Shown here: one piece after another, positions 1,113 to 32,659 of the stretch
How the letters are laid out: the number at the start of each line of letters is the position of its first letter
Numbering within the stretch: position 1 is the first letter of the stretch
DNA from: Candidatus Omnitrophota bacterium
GTDB taxonomy: Bacteria > Omnitrophota > Gorgyraeia > Zapsychrales > JAHFFX01
Reading direction: 5' to 3'
Length of the DNA: 37,116 nucleotides
Assembly: GCA_023247705.1 (NCBI GenBank)
Contig: JAHFFY010000016.1
Span: 1 to 37,116, forward strand
Translations under genes and position numbers: made by a program
The notes under the pieces: generated by a model
Database searches by the model: none
The model's input: the letters and a program-made list of their open reading frames with translations, nothing else
What the model was told of the DNA's origin: nothing

Positions 1113-3176
1113 TCAACGTAATTTTCTAACCCCGAAATAAAACGACAACGCGTACATCGCGATGGCCAATAAATAGAGGAAACTGAACCCGGTCTGCATG
1201 GAAAAATATTCACACGCACCACCCACGATTCCTCCCAGCAGATTAAAAGCAAAAATACCGGTGACATCCTTCGTCTTCTTAAACAAAGCGGCAAAAATCA
1301 TCCCCGCGAAAAACATCGGCAATGCCAAAATCAACGACGCTAGAAAGAAACCGGCGCCCCGGTTAAAGGCCAAATAGAGATCGGGTTTAATCAACCAATT
1401 TAAGAGAATGGCCGCAAACAAACCGAAATAAATGGGCTTCACATTTTGAACCTTCCATCGTTCCACAACGATATTGGCCAACAGAATCATGACCAAGATT
1501 GAAACAATCACAATGGAACTCACGACCCATGTGGATCCGAATAACAGCGCGAAACGGGTGATGCTGACGGTTTCAAGCAACAGGAACCCGGCCCCCAGAA
1601 AAAAGAAAGGCGCGTTAAAGCGCTGCCAGGGACGTTCAATGGCATTGCCGATGCACACCAGCGCAAAGAAAAGAACGATGGCCAAGACCGTTAAATAATG
1701 CCGGGGAATTCCGCGCTTAAGGAGATACAAATAAGGCCAATCATCGGAAATCAGCTTTGTGTCGGAAAATCCCTCTTCGAAAACAAAATCCCCGCCGGAA
1801 GGGAGCTTCAGGTCTTTCACCATTTCTCCGGCAAGAAAAATAACGGTATCCCCCGGATTGTACGTGGTCGCTCTGACCGCCTTGACCTGATCACCGAAAT
1901 TTGCCTTTAACCCGGCGTATAATTTTTCTTCGACCCATTTTTTAAAACCTAAATAGGTCAGCGACACCAATCCGTTGGGTTTAAGCCGTTTTTTGATATC
2001 CGCAAAACTTTCTTTGGTATAAATAAAATTATCCAGGCGCACGCTCGAGAATTGAGAAAGAACACGGTGGGCGTCCAGATAACCGAAGGTGATGAGATCA
2101 TATTTTTTGTCTGTCTTTCTGATGAATGAGCGCGCGTCATCCACGGTGACTTTGACCTTATCGGAACGATAGGGTTTTTCCCTATGCAGAGATCTGCCTA
2201 GCGTCGCGATAAACGGATCAATTTCGATGGCATCTATCTCTTCGGCCCCTCGTCTGAGCGCCGCGGCGACGTCATTTCCGGAGCCCGCCCCCAGGACGAG
2301 AACTTTTTTGGCGTTCACGATGGAATACGGAAATTCGTATATCTCTTTATAACGTTTTAATTCCGGCGCTTTCAGCAGACGTTCATCACTTAAGTTATAG
2401 GCATTTTGCAGTTGAGTATTATTAATGGAAATACGAAAATCCTGAGGGACCTGATTCGCTGTTGCCCACAGGGGTGTAATGGAGACTTTATGATAAGGAG
2501 ACCAATAGAATTCTTTATTGGCGATGCCAACGATGTAGATCGTCAGAAATAAAATAAAGCTATGTAAAAGAATCCGCCGGATGGAAAATCTGACAAACCA
2601 TAACGCGGCTCCCATCCCCCAGAAAAACCACCACACCGGATAGGTCATTAAATACGAGAGATACGAAAACGTCAATACCCCGACAAGACTTCCAAATATA
2701 TTGATCGAATAGGCCAACAATGGATTTTGAAATGACTTTAAAGAGACTCCCAGCTTTTGTCCAAGCGTAACAAAAAGCATGGTACTGAAAATAAACACGA
2801 CCGTTATGCTAAATAGAAAATTTATTCCATATTCCGAATAGAAACCTCTGAGGATCTCATCCTGGATCTGGTTGGCTGTGACCGGGACATAACTGAATCC
2901 AACCACAAATAAAGTCAAGACAAACACCAGAACTGAAAAAAGATTCATCAGGTCAAAATTCAATTCGGATAGCAGGCAACCGATCCCGAGTCCTAAAAAA
3001 CACGATATTAAAACGATGTTAGTAAAGAAAGCCAGGATTTGAATATTCGAGGGAATCCAACGAATCAGTAGCACTTCAAAAAACAAGGCCAAAAAACTGA
3101 TCAAAAATAGTTCGAATATATTTTTGATCAAATTTTTTCTGTCTGACAGTTTGTGTGTGTCGCGATTATTGGTCAT
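1113..3176 (-). CDS. Membrane-bound spermidine-synthase-like protein
   Basis: A 687-residue protein with about seven membrane segments in residues 15-220, a soluble Rossmann-type domain, and a second membrane block from about 505 to the end. The soluble part has the S-adenosyl-nucleotide-binding motif GAGSGND (residues 296-302) and the acidic AIEIDP (around 315-321), followed by DDARSFIR and YDLITFGYLDAH, typical of the polyamine aminopropyltransferase superfamily. Large membrane-embedded members of this family are widespread but rarely characterised, and making spermidine should not be assumed. The start is supported by AAGGA 9-10 bases upstream of ATG 3176. A terminator lies between it and the upstream DUF347 gene, so it may have its own promoter. 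Confidence 0.8.
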   Translation of the reverse strand: MTNNRDTHKLSDRKNLIKNIFELFLISFLALFFEVLLIRWIPSNIQILAFFTNIVLISCFLGLGIGCLLSELNFDLMNLFSVLVFVLTLFVVGFSYVPVTANQIQDEILRGFYSEYGINFLFSITVVFIFSTMLFVTLGQKLGVSLKSFQNPLLAYSINIFGSLVGVLTFSYLSYLMTYPVWWFFWGMGAALWFVRFSIRRILLHSFILFLTIYIVGIANKEFYWSPYHKVSITPLWATANQVPQDFRISINNTQLQNAYNLSDERLLKAPELKRYKEIYEFPYSIVNAKKVLVLGAGSGNDVAAALRRGAEEIDAIEIDPFIATLGRSLHREKPYRSDKVKVTVDDARSFIRKTDKKYDLITFGYLDAHRVLSQFSSVRLDNFIYTKESFADIKKRLKPNGLVSLTYLGFKKWVEEKLYAGLKANFGDQVKAVRATTYNPGDTVIFLAGEMVKDLKLPSGGDFVFEEGFSDTKLISDDWPYLYLLKRGIPRHYLTVLAIVLFFALVCIGNAIERPWQRFNAPFFFLGAGFLLLETVSITRFALLFGSTWVVSSIVIVSILVMILLANIVVERWKVQNVKPIYFGLFAAILLNWLIKPDLYLAFNRGAGFFLASLILALPMFFAGMIFAALFKKTKDVTGIFAFNLLGGIVGGACEYFSMQTGFSFLYLLAIAMYALSFYFGVRKLR

Positions 3177-5506: not shown

Positions 5507-6034
5507 TTAACGTAATGATCGCGCATGAAAACCAATCGAAATTTTAGGCTTTTCCTCTTCTTTCATCAACCGGCGGATCGCTTCGAAAACGATCTGAAAC
5601 TGCGCGTCGTAATTTTTCTCCAATTCATTTAATTTCTTTGCCAACTTTTTATGCGTTGATAAAATCTCTCTCAGATGAACAAAAGCTCGCATGATGGAAA
5701 TATTCACTTCAATCGCGCGATGACTGCGCAGGACACTCGAACGCATGGCCACCCCTTGTTCGGTGAATGCATCTGGCAAATACTTCGCATGCTGACCTTG
5801 TTCTAAGGTACCCAAATGGCACCTTAAGAAATTGTATTCTTTTGTGGTAAGCTCCAGGATAAAATCAGACGGAAAACGCGTCCGGTTTCTTTTCACCGCT
5901 CTTTTCAGTTGTTTGGTTTCCACGCCATAGAGTGTGGCCAAATCAAAATCCAACATGACCTTCTTACCACGCAGTAAAAATATTTTTTGTTTAATATAGT
6001 CTAGGGTGACAATCGAAACTCTGGCTGCAGGCAT
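5507..6034 (-). CDS. ORF6N-domain DNA-binding protein (copy 1)
   Basis: 175 residues. Residues 8-70 match the ORF6N domain (KIFLLRGKKVMLDFDLATLYGV, LKRAVKRNRTRFPSDFILELT). Then come FTEQGVAM, AIEVNISIMRAFVHLRE and a C-terminal coiled-coil ending IRRLMKEEEKPKISIGFHA. ORF6N proteins are relatives of phage antirepressors and Bro proteins. The AGGGG ribosome binding site lies 8-9 bases upstream of ATG 6034, inside a hairpin. A palindrome occupies codons for NFLRCHLGTLE (5801-5830). The protein is homologous over its length to the product at 15126-15638, but the palindromic segment differs. It is probably a DNA-binding regulator; target unknown. Confidence 0.85.
   Translation of the reverse strand: MPAARVSIVTLDYIKQKIFLLRGKKVMLDFDLATLYGVETKQLKRAVKRNRTRFPSDFILELTTKEYNFLRCHLGTLEQGQHAKYLPDAFTEQGVAMRSSVLRSHRAIEVNISIMRAFVHLREILSTHKKLAKKLNELEKNYDAQFQIVFEAIRRLMKEEEKPKISIGFHARSLR
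5801..5830. repeat. Palindrome inside ORF6N gene copy 1
   Basis: TTCTAAGGTACCC (5801-5813) pairs imperfectly with GGCACCTTAAGAA (5818-5830): eleven pairs with one bulge and one mismatch that is a G-U pair in RNA. Its centre falls on the His codon of RCHLG, the same codon position as the palindrome in copy 2. Confidence 0.6.
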
Positions 6035-6237: not shown

Positions 6238-7716
6238 TTAATCCTTTTTCTCAACTCCTGGACATTTCCCCTGCACCTCTTCGCTCCCTTTCCCCTCCCT
6301 CTCCAACACCTGACCGATCAACGGCGGCGGGGATCCGGGGATCGGGGACTGCGACCAGGTTTTGGGATAGACAAAGGTTTCGCCGATGAACAAACGCTCC
6401 TCAGGTTTGTCCGAGAGAAAATTGCCGGTGATCACGATCCGGATGCGATCGGTTTTATATTCCGCTGGCGCCATGAGACTGCGTTCGATTTTGAGCGTCG
6501 CGGTGTTGAAACCTGGCTTGAGACGGACGGGAATTTGTTTATCGTGGCTTGGGGAACTTGGATCGAGATAAGTGCCGGCCGCAAGTTCGGCGAAACGGGA
6601 GCCTTGGGGATCGTAAATATAATCGACCGCAAGCTCCAGGAGATCGTTGGTTTCGTTGGCAATGCGCACTTGACGGATCCGTCCGTAACCGAAACCGGTG
6701 CCCGGGTCGGTTTCCGGGAAGGCGGCCCCGGAGAGAACATGACGCCAGGATTTTTCATACGGAAAAACCCTCTTGGCCAGATCAGGAAGAAACGCATATC
6801 CTTTTTTCCGGTACATGGTGATTTCAATCGCATCCGAAGTAAAACAATCCGGCGCGTCGCCGGTTGCGCTCATCGCGATCACCGCCTTGTGTTGTCCGGC
6901 ATAGAGCTGGGCCGGAACAAATCCCGTGAACGGAACATACGCACCGTCACGCAAAAGCCCGGCCTGCAGATTCGCCCAATCTTCGCCTTGCGGGTCGTAA
7001 TTGTATTCGACTTCAATATTCCAAGAATCATCTGCTTCGTTTAAGACTTTTAATCCCAGAAGCTGATTATTGCCGACAGTAACGGTCTGCACGTAGCGGT
7101 CTGCATGATTGGACTCCGCCTCCGGCGGATTAATGATTTCGCCGGTGTCGGCGCTAAAATCCAATTGACGTCCGTCGATTAAGGTAATCCCAAAAACCGT
7201 TAAGCCATTCTCAAAACGAAACCCGCGATACTCCCGGATGACCGAGTAATGCGAGATCGATCGCGTCACATTCCCTGGATCGCCGGCTAAATCCAAATTG
7301 GAATACCGCTTTAACCACTTGTCATTCTTATAAAACTCCATCGCCAGATCATCGGAGGAGGCCTCAGTGCCCCGGGCCCACACGCCGGGCCGGACCACAT
7401 CAATTCCGTCGTCGGCCGGTTCAAGATAAAGATGCGCAGCATACCAGGGATATTTTGCAATCAGGACATCTTTTTTCTTTCCCACCTTGAAAATCCTCGT
7501 CTCACCTTCCGTGCCCCAACCCTTCGCTGGGACCGATTTGGCGTAGTACCCGCCGCCGAAACTGATTTCGATGTGAAGGACATTAGGCCCTTGGGAATCC
7601 GCGTGCGTTATCATCGGATTGATCAAAGAGATCATGGCCGACAAGGCACAGAACAAAACGTTTCTTGACATAACAATAGCCATCTTCGCTTCCAAAAGCA
7701 GCATGAATTTTTTCAT
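6238..7716 (-). CDS. Exported protein of unknown function with a duplicated domain
   Basis: 492 residues. The start at 7716 is chosen because TAGGAG lies 7 bases upstream; a signal sequence follows, with a hydrophobic stretch ending THADS near residue 40. Two homologous blocks are visible, about residues 209-323 and 347-454. Each has a beta-strand run with the motif NE..D....V.Y.YDPQG, then an A-x-L-x-AG turn, a PGF/AGQ-type strand and a TSD.I.I or KTD.I.I strand, and ends in a F..YEKSW or FVYPKTW motif. The pattern suggests two tandem beta-sandwich domains in the periplasm or at the cell surface. The N-terminal 150 residues are different and unrecognised. The C-terminal tail is proline-rich. 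No catalytic motif is evident. Confidence 0.75.
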   Translation of the reverse strand: MKKFMLLLEAKMAIVMSRNVLFCALSAMISLINPMITHADSQGPNVLHIEISFGGGYYAKSVPAKGWGTEGETRIFKVGKKKDVLIAKYPWYAAHLYLEPADDGIDVVRPGVWARGTEASSDDLAMEFYKNDKWLKRYSNLDLAGDPGNVTRSISHYSVIREYRGFRFENGLTVFGITLIDGRQLDFSADTGEIINPPEAESNHADRYVQTVTVGNNQLLGLKVLNEADDSWNIEVEYNYDPQGEDWANLQAGLLRDGAYVPFTGFVPAQLYAGQHKAVIAMSATGDAPDCFTSDAIEITMYRKKGYAFLPDLAKRVFPYEKSWRHVLSGAAFPETDPGTGFGYGRIRQVRIANETNDLLELAVDYIYDPQGSRFAELAAGTYLDPSSPSHDKQIPVRLKPGFNTATLKIERSLMAPAEYKTDRIRIVITGNFLSDKPEERLFIGETFVYPKTWSQSPIPGSPPPLIGQVLEREGKGSEEVQGKCPGVEKKD

Positions 7717-30082: not shown

Positions 30083-31114
30083 TTAATCCATTCGCCTCGC
30101 GTGGTCATGCTGCAGCAATAAATTATTCAAATAAATATCCGTTCCCACATCAGGACGATTTCCATGGGCAATAAACACATCCGCCAGATAACGGTCGTAT
30201 TTATCCGAACGGCTGGAGCGCACGATCAACGTCTGCGCTTCCTTAATATAGGCCTGCACAAAGGTCTTCGCGGCCTGGCCTTCTTTGGTGTTCAGCTCCG
30301 GACAATCCAGCCCGCGCAACCGAAGCGTCTCGCGGTGCCACTGGCCGAACCCTAAACTGAATCGCACCTTGAGCGTATCGCCGTCGATCACCTTCTCCAC
30401 GATCGCGGAATAGGTGTAAAGGTCTTGGGCGCCGCGTTTGCTTTCGAAGAGTTTGAATTTGTCTTCGGTCGGGCGCGATTCGACGATCGTTTGATCGCTG
30501 AAGCGCGCTTGCTGGACGGAAGTGATTTCCTGGAAATTTCCAAAACCTAAATCGAGATAAAATTCGGGTTCGTCGGCGGAGGCAACATTCGGGCGTTTGA
30601 CGATGCGGTAGGTGTAGGGCGTGCCGCGTTGGGGGGTTAAAAGTTGACTCTGAGTTCGTAGTTCTGGGCTCTTCGCTCTTGGAGCGTCAGCCGGTTGTTC
30701 GTCCTGGATCCGCGCGGCGAGTTCGTCGGCAGTCCAGGCGTGGCGGAAGGCGGCTTTTTCGAGTTGAGCACGTTTTTTATCATCGGAGACAGCAATAAGT
30801 TTTCGAAAATGGCTCCAGCTGAATTGTCGGCGGCCGCCGACAATTGGCGGGCGAGGATAAACCTTGACGAACTGAACACACCGGTGCAGATTGCTCAAAT
30901 CCACCTTAAGATCTTTCGCTAAGCGCTGAACGACCTCGGTCCCATACTCGGCGCGGTCGGCGTTTTTCAAAATATCCGCCTGAATGAGCTTCCCCGTCTC
31001 CCAGTACGTCCTCACCCGCTCCTCTTCAATCCGCCGCTGTCCTTCCACGAGCGCTTCGCGAACGCGTTTGAGAAGGGTTAGGTAGGTGTCGGATTTGATT
31101 GAAGATTTTGGCAT
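30083..31114 (-). CDS. DUF1016 N-terminal domain fused to a staphylococcal-nuclease domain
   Basis: 343 residues. Residues 10-140 match the YhcG/DUF1016 N-terminal helical domain (ALVEGQRRIEEERVRTYWETGKLI, FSWSHFRKLIAV). Residues 235-335 are a thermonuclease domain, KVIDGDTLKVRF through LNNLL. Active-site equivalents are retained: Asp 244, the Arg pair 265/267, Asp 270, Glu 273 (LRLRGLDCPEL) and Arg 308 (KYDRYLADV). Most DUF1016 proteins instead end in a PD-(D/E)xK nuclease domain. The joint (about 145-165) is low-complexity. It follows directly on the stop of an AT-rich membrane-protein gene, hinting at a two-gene unit. No signal peptide, so the nuclease is probably intracellular. Confidence 0.85.
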   Translation of the reverse strand: MPKSSIKSDTYLTLLKRVREALVEGQRRIEEERVRTYWETGKLIQADILKNADRAEYGTEVVQRLAKDLKVDLSNLHRCVQFVKVYPRPPIVGGRRQFSWSHFRKLIAVSDDKKRAQLEKAAFRHAWTADELAARIQDEQPADAPRAKSPELRTQSQLLTPQRGTPYTYRIVKRPNVASADEPEFYLDLGFGNFQEITSVQQARFSDQTIVESRPTEDKFKLFESKRGAQDLYTYSAIVEKVIDGDTLKVRFSLGFGQWHRETLRLRGLDCPELNTKEGQAAKTFVQAYIKEAQTLIVRSSRSDKYDRYLADVFIAHGNRPDVGTDIYLNNLLLQHDHARRMD

Positions 31115-31804
31115 TTATTGTTGTTTTATAGGAATCAACTTCTCCAAGCCAAATGCTAATATTACGCCGATGGTAGCCCATAAGATATTTAGAATATTTC
31201 CGATTAGAAAAACATGATGAGAAGACATTCTATCTATTGATTTAGCAAATTGTTGCCAAGTAACAGCGACTTTGGTAGTAATCCAAAAGACAATAAACTC
31301 AGGTCGTCGAATTACTAACGCAAAAAAATACACCATAAGTTCTAAAGTTCCCAATAAATTTACAAATGAATACGCATCTTTAATCTTTCTCTCCCCACTT
31401 GATAAATAACGCCACAACAATTTATTAATCCAGTGATTTAGATAACCTCCCACAAGAACAGATATAAATATTCCAAACCATATTTGATCCAATAGAGAAT
31501 TATTTTTATTTGCTAGGGTAAAAAATCCTTGGATATAAAAATTCCTTCCTACAATAATTAAAAAAACCATAATGCTAACTAAATATATCCGATAAACTGT
31601 TTCCTTTTCAAAAGAACCAAACCCTAAATTATGTTTTCTAGCGGTAAACCATGCAACAATGCAATGCACAAACAGGACTAAAGACGGCATCAACAAAATA
31701 AAAGCTGCACCATTTTCCATATTAATACTAAAATGAAATTTATAGTACAGCCAATAAAAAGACCAATACAAGATTAAGGAAAATAATTGTTCAATAAGTT
31801 TCAT
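31115..31804 (-). CDS. Polytopic membrane protein of unknown function
   Basis: 229 residues with about six to seven hydrophobic helices and few charges. The coding sequence is visibly more AT-rich than the DUF1016-nuclease gene that follows with no gap. No family motif is recognised. Position and base composition suggest acquisition from elsewhere; a role beside the nuclease is possible but unproven. Confidence 0.6.
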   Translation of the reverse strand: MKLIEQLFSLILYWSFYWLYYKFHFSINMENGAAFILLMPSLVLFVHCIVAWFTARKHNLGFGSFEKETVYRIYLVSIMVFLIIVGRNFYIQGFFTLANKNNSLLDQIWFGIFISVLVGGYLNHWINKLLWRYLSSGERKIKDAYSFVNLLGTLELMVYFFALVIRRPEFIVFWITTKVAVTWQQFAKSIDRMSSHHVFLIGNILNILWATIGVILAFGLEKLIPIKQQ

Positions 31805-32034: not shown

Positions 32035-32199
32035 TCAAGCCGATCTTCTTCGCGATCGGTTCTGCAAAATCTTGATTTGCTCTCTGGTTAAATCTTCTTG
32101 CTCTGATTTCTCATAAGGAAACAGCATATATATTTTTTCATCTCGAGTATACACGTAATAAATGACCCTTAATCCACCCCTTTTGCCTCTCCCTTTCCC
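32035..32199 (-). pseudogene. RelE/HigB-type toxin, C-terminal fragment
   Basis: Reading the minus strand from 32199 gives GKGRGKRGGLRVIYYVYT, then YMLFPYEKSEQEDLT and a stop at 32035-32037. This is the C-terminal half of RelE-family toxins (GK-GG-RVIYY, then 'YxKxEQEDLTxEQ'). An in-frame TAG lies immediately upstream at 32200-32202 and the N-terminal half is missing. No antitoxin frame is seen next to it, so it is a decayed remnant. The rest of 31805-32302 is gene-free. Confidence 0.75.
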
Positions 32200-32245
32200 C
32201 TAGACCACACCCCTTAAGGGTGTCGGGGTTCGAAAAACTTCTAAA

Positions 32246-32283
32246 AAAACAAACGATGTGAACATTTTCACATCGTTTGTTTT
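32246..32283. terminator. Strong hairpin terminator
   Basis: Perfect 17-base arms (32246-32262 and 32267-32283) around a 4-base loop, flanked by A and T runs. Being symmetrical it can stop transcription on both strands, and it lies 19 bases beyond the stop of the small peptide gene. Confidence 0.9.
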
Positions 32284-32302
32284 AAAACCTCCAAGGATAA
32301 AA

Positions 32303-32416
32303 TTATTCCCCGCCTTCAGAAGCGATAGCTGATGAACCCATAAAAAACGGAGCCGTCATTGTTCCAACAGCTAGTAATACTAAACTCAACATAAGAATAA
32401 CAAAAAATTTCTGCAT
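32303..32416 (-). CDS. 37-residue exported or membrane peptide
   Basis: ATG at 32414-32416 is preceded by the very strong ribosome binding site GGAGGGGAG. The peptide begins MQKFFVILMLSLVLLAVG, continues as one hydrophobic helix, and ends SSAIASEGGE. The TTGACA/TATTTT promoter is about 60 bases upstream, and a perfect hairpin terminator closes the gene. The three strong signals around so short a frame argue that it is a real, highly expressed gene. The product could be a small single-span membrane protein or a cleaved signal-peptide-like peptide. The longer open frame to 32650 contains the promoter and is rejected. It lies divergently from the porin gene. Confidence 0.7.
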   Translation of the reverse strand: MQKFFVILMLSLVLLAVGTMTAPFFMGSSAIASEGGE

Positions 32417-32473
32417 TCTCCTCCCCTCCTTTCCTCCATCGACATTCTTCGGATATAAAAATGATTTGTTTTT

Positions 32474-32502
32474 AAAATAACATATGGTCTTTACCTTGTC
32501 AA
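32474..32502 (-). promoter_or_regulatory. Strong sigma-70-type promoter for the 37-residue peptide gene
   Basis: On the minus strand TTGACA (32497-32502) and TATTTT (32474-32479) are exactly 17 bases apart. Confidence 0.7.
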
Positions 32503-32659
32503 CAGACTGATCAAAAGGACTTGGGCCCTTAGAAGGAACGAAATTTCCATTTTTGATCCCGGAAAAATTTTTAATCTTTTCGTTGCGAAAATTTTTTTTT
32601 AAATTAAGATGAATTTGTATATCAAAATTATAAATTAATCCTTTAAACAAGGAGCATAA

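Follow-up and report, generated by a model that had tools for sequence, protein, structure and literature searches.

A DUF1016–staphylococcal nuclease fusion encoded by dispersed solitary genes: a candidate DNA-aimed nuclease of the mobilome or defence type

The window analysed in this work, a stretch of 37,116 nucleotides from a Candidatus Omnitrophota bacterium, bears a gene (30083..31114, (−)) that joins a DUF1016_N domain to a staphylococcal-type nuclease. The gene belongs to a family of dispersed solo genes placed among unrelated neighbours, where the unit comprises approximately the ORF and a little flank. Because of its anatomy, its accessory mobile habit and the variability of its N-terminal domains, our best guess, to which we give an even chance, is that the product acts as a solitary, horizontally exchanged DNA nuclease of the mobilome/defence type that finds its targets through its own DNA-binding domain. 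Annotations of the widespread DUF1016 proteins go no further than unknown or putative nuclease, and the dispersal of one-gene copies across genomes and phyla raises the question of whether they serve host defence or their own spread.

Results

Domain structure and active site of the fusion protein

The fusion ORF, defined by the ORF list and the Pfam scan, starts with ATG and encodes 343 aa. In Pfam it matched PF17761 (DUF1016_N) with an E of 5.7e-20 (72.3 bits at a gathering score of 32.8) and, over aa 263-325, PF00565 (SNase) with an E of 2e-5 (25.5 bits at a cut-off of 21); beyond these two, no Pfam family was found in the protein at E 0.1. Thus, the fusion proposed earlier from the letters alone was confirmed, both domains lying above the Pfam cut-offs in one ORF. 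The DUF1016_N domain (aa 16-138; 30701..31069, (−)), delimited by PF17761 and fold comparison, is predicted to be a helical, ParB/Noc/KorB-like DNA-binding domain. It is followed by a middle beta domain without a Pfam name (about aa 166-226; 30437..30619, (−)), recognised from the secondary structure of the model and bearing conserved RG..Y.Y and D-GF motifs, and by the staphylococcal nuclease domain (aa 229-343; 30086..30430, (−)), on which Pfam, phmmer, the model and the alignment agree.

With phmmer, aa 232-315 matched thermonuclease structures (E 1.4e-6), and a structural model built from 27 relatives (mean pLDDT 87.7) comprised the helical N-domain, the middle beta domain and a full nuclease barrel. 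The predicted nuclease domain was superimposed on staphylococcal nuclease 1snd with a Z of 14.1 (98 residues, 1.9 A). For the middle domain, in which G164, D188, G190 and F191 are conserved in 103 of the 104 alignment rows, structure comparison gave weak matches at best (Z about 3).

The residues D246, R265, D270, E273 and R308, which we take to correspond to Asp21, Arg35, Asp40, Glu43 and Arg87 of staphylococcal nuclease, are conserved in 102, 102, 87, 101 and 101 rows, and the five are intact together in 84 of the 104 rows, the mis-cut row L149 and the outlier L105 being scored as misses in these counts. The near-invariance of these positions and the fold predicted to be complete bear out the claim that the nuclease has kept its catalytic residues. 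Nonetheless, D270 is replaced by N in 15 of the 104 rows and is not kept in the two Leptospira proteins described below, which counts against the defence reading. Mean identity between copies is 0.30 in the N-domain vs. 0.48 in the nuclease. Several models of PDC-S02, a defence candidate in PADLOC, matched the DUF1016 part of the fusion (best E 1.7e-23).

Distribution of the family

The fusion is far beyond chance: the search for further DUF1016-SNase fusions, suggested by the sequence-only reading, gave matches in 48 of the 92 genomes of the same order or class, with up to 16 per genome, among the matches listed, which include fragments and single-domain hits along with whole copies. A second copy in the window's own genome is 32% identical to the first and lies downstream of a Fic gene. 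The best 80 named loci come from Omnitrophota (54), Verrucomicrobiota (23), Thermodesulfobacteriota (1) and Latescibacterota (1), one having no phylum, and in nearly all of them one open frame matches the query in the DUF1016 part and on into the nuclease. The Omnitrophota-order set comprised 81 loci, two of which (L070, L078) had no called copy, while the short L094 (<300 aa) was excluded, such that the tree contained 78 rows from this order and 26 other rows.

Among plasmids, the fusion matched 147 records, and in 13 the match spans 80% or more of the query. All of the best 20 plasmid matches listed are from Leptospira, where the annotation reads DUF1016 N-terminal domain-containing protein; alignment of two of these proteins showed that D244, D246, T247, R265, E273 and R308 are kept and D270 is not, and both stay below the cut-off of the Pfam SNase model. 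None of the 122 matching phage records covers 80% of the fusion, and the best 80 viral-contig loci match from aa 219 onward only, i.e., in the nuclease part. The lack of a full-length copy in these phage records and viral-contig loci also counts against the defence reading.

The N-terminal domain as a possible ParB/Noc-like fold

A separate model of aa 1-228 (mean pLDDT 84.7) was compared with the PDB using Foldseek; the 27 top-ranked rows were without exception ParB, Noc, Spo0J or SopB structures, with a best E of 9e-3. After realignment, the first 14 rows were all ParB, Noc, Spo0J or KorB with Z from 10.1 to 6.5, the top match being Noc (Z 10.1, 98 residues, 2.5 A); the first unrelated row had a Z of 6.0, and helical folds score high in general. 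Noc also came up when the PDB was searched with a profile, matching aa 65-144 with an E of 0.35, which is not significant. By sequence, no solved structure matched DUF1016_N at E <0.02 with the fusion profile or at E <0.11 with the classical profile, ParB and Noc were not met in the PDB by the classical YhcG profile, and the Pfam scan at E 0.1 returned no ParB family that would indicate an N-terminal ParB/CTPase domain.

The N-domains of the fusion and of classical YhcG are clearly related (profile-profile probability 99.7%, E 1.6e-25), the classical alignment being based on 18 of 20 relatives fetched. As to the classical C-terminal part, PF06250 (PD-(D/E)XK) was absent from the fusion at E 0.1, and the profile alignment of aa 1-228 covered the N-domain only. 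A 2005 study reported no confident match of the YhcG N-domain to known structures (PMC1189080), and our literature search, which missed most subscription journals, found no paper that brings DUF1016 and ParB together.

Taken together, the ParB-like N-domain, predicted from the model of one family, is a good lead, short of proving homology, and would be in keeping with docking on DNA. The predicted ParB/Noc-like fold offers a testable guess for DUF1016 N-domains, namely that they may bind particular DNA. Since the same putative docking domain sits on a second, unrelated nuclease fold, the N-domain is suggested to be the aiming part.

The adjoining membrane ORF

Next to the fusion lies an AT-rich ORF for a 229-aa membrane protein (31115..31804, (−)), in which simple hydropathy counting indicates about four hydrophobic segments and for which no Pfam match was obtained. 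Its TAA immediately precedes the ATG of the fusion, and its G+C content is 30% vs. 54% in the fusion. The sequence-only reading was therefore right in pointing to an adjoining membrane protein of different composition, and co-transcription of the two genes is plausible.

That reading had further proposed a two-gene, plausibly antiphage module of nuclease and membrane component; in a model of this kind, the nuclease would be held at the envelope by the membrane protein. The stop-to-start abutment favours this model, as do membrane ORFs with weak similarity in the vicinity of a single further copy, L042 (genome G032), the only such case in the first 41 fusion loci. These ORFs (2040-2495 and 2640-3146) share short stretches with the membrane ORF of the window (BLASTP E 4e-5 and 5e-5 in single comparisons); however, they lie 634 and 1,234 bp upstream of the copy with another gene between. 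Tabulating the membrane protein beside other fusions revealed no clear second pair in the sample: a recognisable relative stood directly beside none of the 78 other copies examined in the same-order (Omnitrophota) genomes, so that the partner is missing beside all other copies among the 79 loci. Moreover, the protein was recognisable in 4 of the 92 genomes (in three of them at weak scores) and matched none of 72,556 plasmid records, and the sharp G+C gap likewise argues against a module. Nor were membrane proteins enriched upstream of the fusion, since at least three hydrophobic segments were found in 3 of 53 same-strand upstream neighbours vs. 63 of 574 other genes (p 0.35). Because the protein is rare, the L042 ORFs are non-adjacent and upstream membrane genes are not enriched, the pair is not a conserved module. 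We rejected the two-gene model on the neighbour tables, the rarity of the protein and this lack of enrichment; it is the least likely of all the readings weighed here, with hardly any chance of being right. The AT-rich membrane gene is best regarded as a local neighbour, not a conserved partner.

As a separate observation, the membrane ORF of the window and the L042 ORFs have in common a short motif, PxFIxxW...W, followed by LIGN or LVGN, and perhaps represent an undescribed small membrane family. Among the matches listed there is also a 31% match to a membrane protein in a genome devoid of the fusion (G010).

Genomic neighbourhood of the copies

Further upstream, the window contains a truncated remnant of a RelE toxin (32038..32199, (−)), of which 54 aa of the C-terminal half are readable without a proper start. 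It matched profile positions 51-96 of the 120 in PF06296 (E 2.5e-5), with 24.9 bits at a cut-off of 27. The RelE fragment reported earlier is thus a real piece, but truncated and below the cut-off. Inspection by eye also revealed a near-perfect inverted repeat at about 32244-32284, just downstream of a small ORF (32303-32650, (−)), which is probably the terminator of that ORF.

For the copies as a whole, 65 of 73 upstream and 68 of 74 downstream genes were scanned, short doubtful ones being left out, and no neighbour family recurred more than three times on either side. The commonest Pfam families were Fic, HTH_3 and HTH_31 (3 each) upstream and Peptidase_S24 (3) downstream. Toxin-antitoxin families upstream comprised Fic (3), HipA (2), MqsA (2) and PIN (2 of 65); AbiEi was found twice downstream, and ORF6N and ResIII were also met beside copies. 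Of the defence or mobile setting claimed earlier, an accessory, mobilome-type setting is supported by the Fic, HipA, MqsA, PIN, AbiEi and ResIII neighbours and the PDC-S02 match. Many copies, however, stand not in defence islands but next to genes of basic metabolism and translation, namely housekeeping genes such as those for enolase, glyceraldehyde-3-phosphate dehydrogenase and class I tRNA synthetase, and PdxA is also met; we count this against the defence reading. The number of distinct PADLOC families was 108 for the 65 upstream and 126 for the 68 downstream genes vs. 47 for 62 genes more than 4 kb away; because these are redundant model counts and not protein counts, the difference is a mere hint of a defence-like neighbourhood.

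The same neighbours bear on the possibility of a toxin-like nuclease of the toxin-antitoxin or abortive-infection type, in which the N-domain would sense a signal and the target would be the cell's own DNA or RNA. The Fic, HipA, MqsA, PIN and AbiEi genes and the RelE remnant next door are in line with this, yet no small antitoxin-like partner gene recurs, and many copies are solo genes with housekeeping neighbours. Hence, a toxin-like function seems improbable, and less likely than either a defence-type or a homing-like one (see below).

An impression from the first 41 loci that the copies have a special orientation to the upstream gene was dropped, as strand and spacing turned out to be like those of other genes: the upstream neighbour is on the same strand for 58 of 75 copies vs. 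505 of 599 other genes, and the downstream neighbour for 67 of 74 copies vs. 483 of 586 other genes. At L051, L054 and L057, TTGACA...TAAAAT/TAGAAT-like boxes just ahead of the copies reach, as judged by eye, to about 10 bases or less from the ATG, which suggests a putative gene-borne promoter and a leaderless mRNA. Directly upstream of the copy at L049, a 207-aa ORF (7006-7629) without a Pfam match shows a weak match to the nuclease part (27.5 bits) and is possibly a decayed tandem copy; downstream of the same copy, about 180 bp of intergenic sequence (5621-5808) are repeated elsewhere in G011, G055 and G074.

Dispersal, decay and selection

When genome labels were placed on the tree, 63 changes were required, vs. 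a minimum of 31 and 66.8 for shuffled labels; since the number is close to the shuffled value, the copies within one genome, which are not one another's nearest relatives, come close to what a random draw from the family would give. The tree row nearest to the window protein is one from G022, a genome of another family of the same order (60% identity). Copy pairs with 74-81% DNA identity (L072/L079, L043/L049 and, within one genome, L029/L033) often share the gene only. In a comparison of 10 kb around the window gene with five related genomes, 7 of the 11 DNA matches fell inside the fusion gene, all of them to G004 and G009, two genomes of another family, and the other four were 29-99 bp pieces of a response-regulator gene.

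Recent dispersal within a genome was clearest in the Opitutia genome NC_groundwater_1783 (G092), where L170, L172 and L174 (contigs of 141, 297 and 221 kb, respectively) have in common a unit of about 1.13 kb that is 87-94% identical and has unrelated flanks. Upstream, the unit extends about 90-140 bp beyond the start codon; downstream, it reaches a few bases past the stop. A second Opitutaceae genome contains a similar pair of copies (85%). L059, L066 and L083, 87-90% identical and from two genera, have the upstream gene in common (single-strand binding protein in L059) and not the downstream one. When L069 (G074:C47) was compared with L063, L067 and L073, its upstream flank was as in L063, and its gene and downstream flank as in L073; this mosaic would fit recombination among the dispersed copies, or else a join made in assembly.

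Decay was seen at a site between two genes, presumably DTD-like and TatD-like, where G012 has a whole copy and G015 approximately the last 46 bp only. At a second site, beside a long gene that we assume to be AsmA-like, a copy is present in G055 and probably in G011, while G074 has another ORF there (DinD-like by our assumption) and its own copy elsewhere; the G042 and G059 sequence retrieved for this site contained no copy. Thus, sites without an intact copy were recorded in G015, G074, G042 and G059, none of them clean or precise. No precise empty site was found for L064, L049 or L072, where a decayed remnant, a complex rearrangement or a site with other genes was seen. As all genomes are draft metagenome bins, some joins may be assembly errors.

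The copies do not behave as an insertion sequence or transposon: the unit contains no transposase, repeats were not seen by eye at the ends of the three young Opitutia copies, and of the k-mers common to six or more copies none was conspicuous apart from A/T-rich words. Hairpins were found upstream of 12 of 74 copies vs. 70 of 529 control genes (p 0.47; in Verrucomicrobiota, 1 of 21 vs. 10 of 153), and GGGACAC-type repeats upstream of 5 of 74 copies vs. 16 of 529, which was not convincing. G092 does contain a hairpin repeat, GCGCGTTRGGGACAACGCGC, with 25 exact sites and 34 at up to one mismatch in about 3.6 Mb. Two young copies have it upstream, at distances of 26 bp and about 145 bp; the third has none within 1.6 kb. 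This placement is unlikely by chance, though it was noticed post hoc, and there is no general enrichment in hairpins.

The copies are under purifying selection and the protein is kept intact. In 13 close pairs dN/dS was 0.105-0.336, and in the three within-genome Opitutia pairs 0.356-0.445, so that all 16 pairs stay below 0.45. Such selection would be expected also of a housekeeping nuclease for repair, recombination or DNA uptake, and one study lists YhcG with predicted DNA-metabolism nucleases (PMC1189080). Against this, among the matches listed the fusion is absent from 44 of the 92 relatives, including both other genomes of the same family, and it is dispersed, decaying and horizontally moved. 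We therefore consider a housekeeping role quite unlikely, well behind the defence-type and homing-like explanations.

Dispersal can be explained at least as well by a selfish homing-like gene as by the defence-type nuclease that we prefer. In the homing-like case, the N-domain would pick a chromosomal site, the nuclease would cut it, and repair would copy the gene in without any gain to the host. A single-gene unit lacking terminal repeats and a shared flank motif, the patchy multi-copy distribution with decay (G015 vs. G012) and the recent dispersal in Opitutia fit this well. However, none of the sites examined was a clean empty one with its target intact, and the sites differ wholly even for copies 77-81% identical, unlike in site-faithful homing. 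Furthermore, the SNase fold is not known to be sequence-specific, and dN/dS below 0.45 in every pair argues against a purely selfish gene, as it could also mean host benefit. On balance, homing has perhaps one chance in a handful. Somewhat less probable still is a transposase-less one-gene chromosomal element whose ParB-like domain would aim the nuclease such that the cut promotes copying of the gene to new places, some copies later becoming defence nucleases; if true, whole bacterial groups would carry up to a dozen diverged copies of it per genome.

Discussion

In this work, we described a family of DUF1016-SNase fusions for which a DNA-aimed nuclease of the mobilome/defence type remains the preferred reading. 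According to this model, the ParB/Noc/KorB-type N-terminal domain would dock the protein on particular DNA sequences, and the SNase domain, expected to be Ca2+-dependent by family, would cut DNA at or near them. Because the N-domains differ much more between copies than the nuclease domains do, targets may vary from copy to copy. Most likely, the nuclease would serve to cut incoming or competing DNA of phages, plasmids or other mobile elements, so that each gene might act as a one-gene factor of defence or inter-element competition. In the literature search, outside which most subscription journals lie, neither 'staphylococcal nuclease' together with DUF1016 nor 'SNase domain' together with 'anti-phage defense' was found.

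The fusion may be compared with several known systems. SNIPE-type nucleases carry a membrane part within the same protein, and their nuclease is GIY-YIG. They recall the idea of a nuclease at the membrane that goes with the two-gene module, whereas for the fusion a membrane partner is not conserved. Free-standing homing endonuclease genes, e.g., those of T4-like phages, are one-gene mobile nucleases lying between unrelated genes; the fusion resembles them in this habit and differs in its nuclease fold. With staphylococcal thermonuclease (PF00565) it shares the fold and the catalytic residues, adding an N-terminal DNA-binding-like domain and the middle domain. The likeness to ParB, Noc and KorB lies in the predicted fold of aa 28-145, despite an identity of 10-19%, the lack of any ParB family in Pfam and the fused nuclease. 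YhcG/DUF1016 (PF17761 and PF06250) has a homologous N-domain and is likewise found in accessory, mobile contexts, being described in three papers as cargo of RAGE and integrative conjugative elements (PMC4316617, PMC6300072, PMC13231603). Unlike YhcG, the fusion bears the middle beta domain and a staphylococcal-type nuclease in place of the C-terminal PD-(D/E)XK domain, and in Omnitrophota it is present in many dispersed copies per genome.
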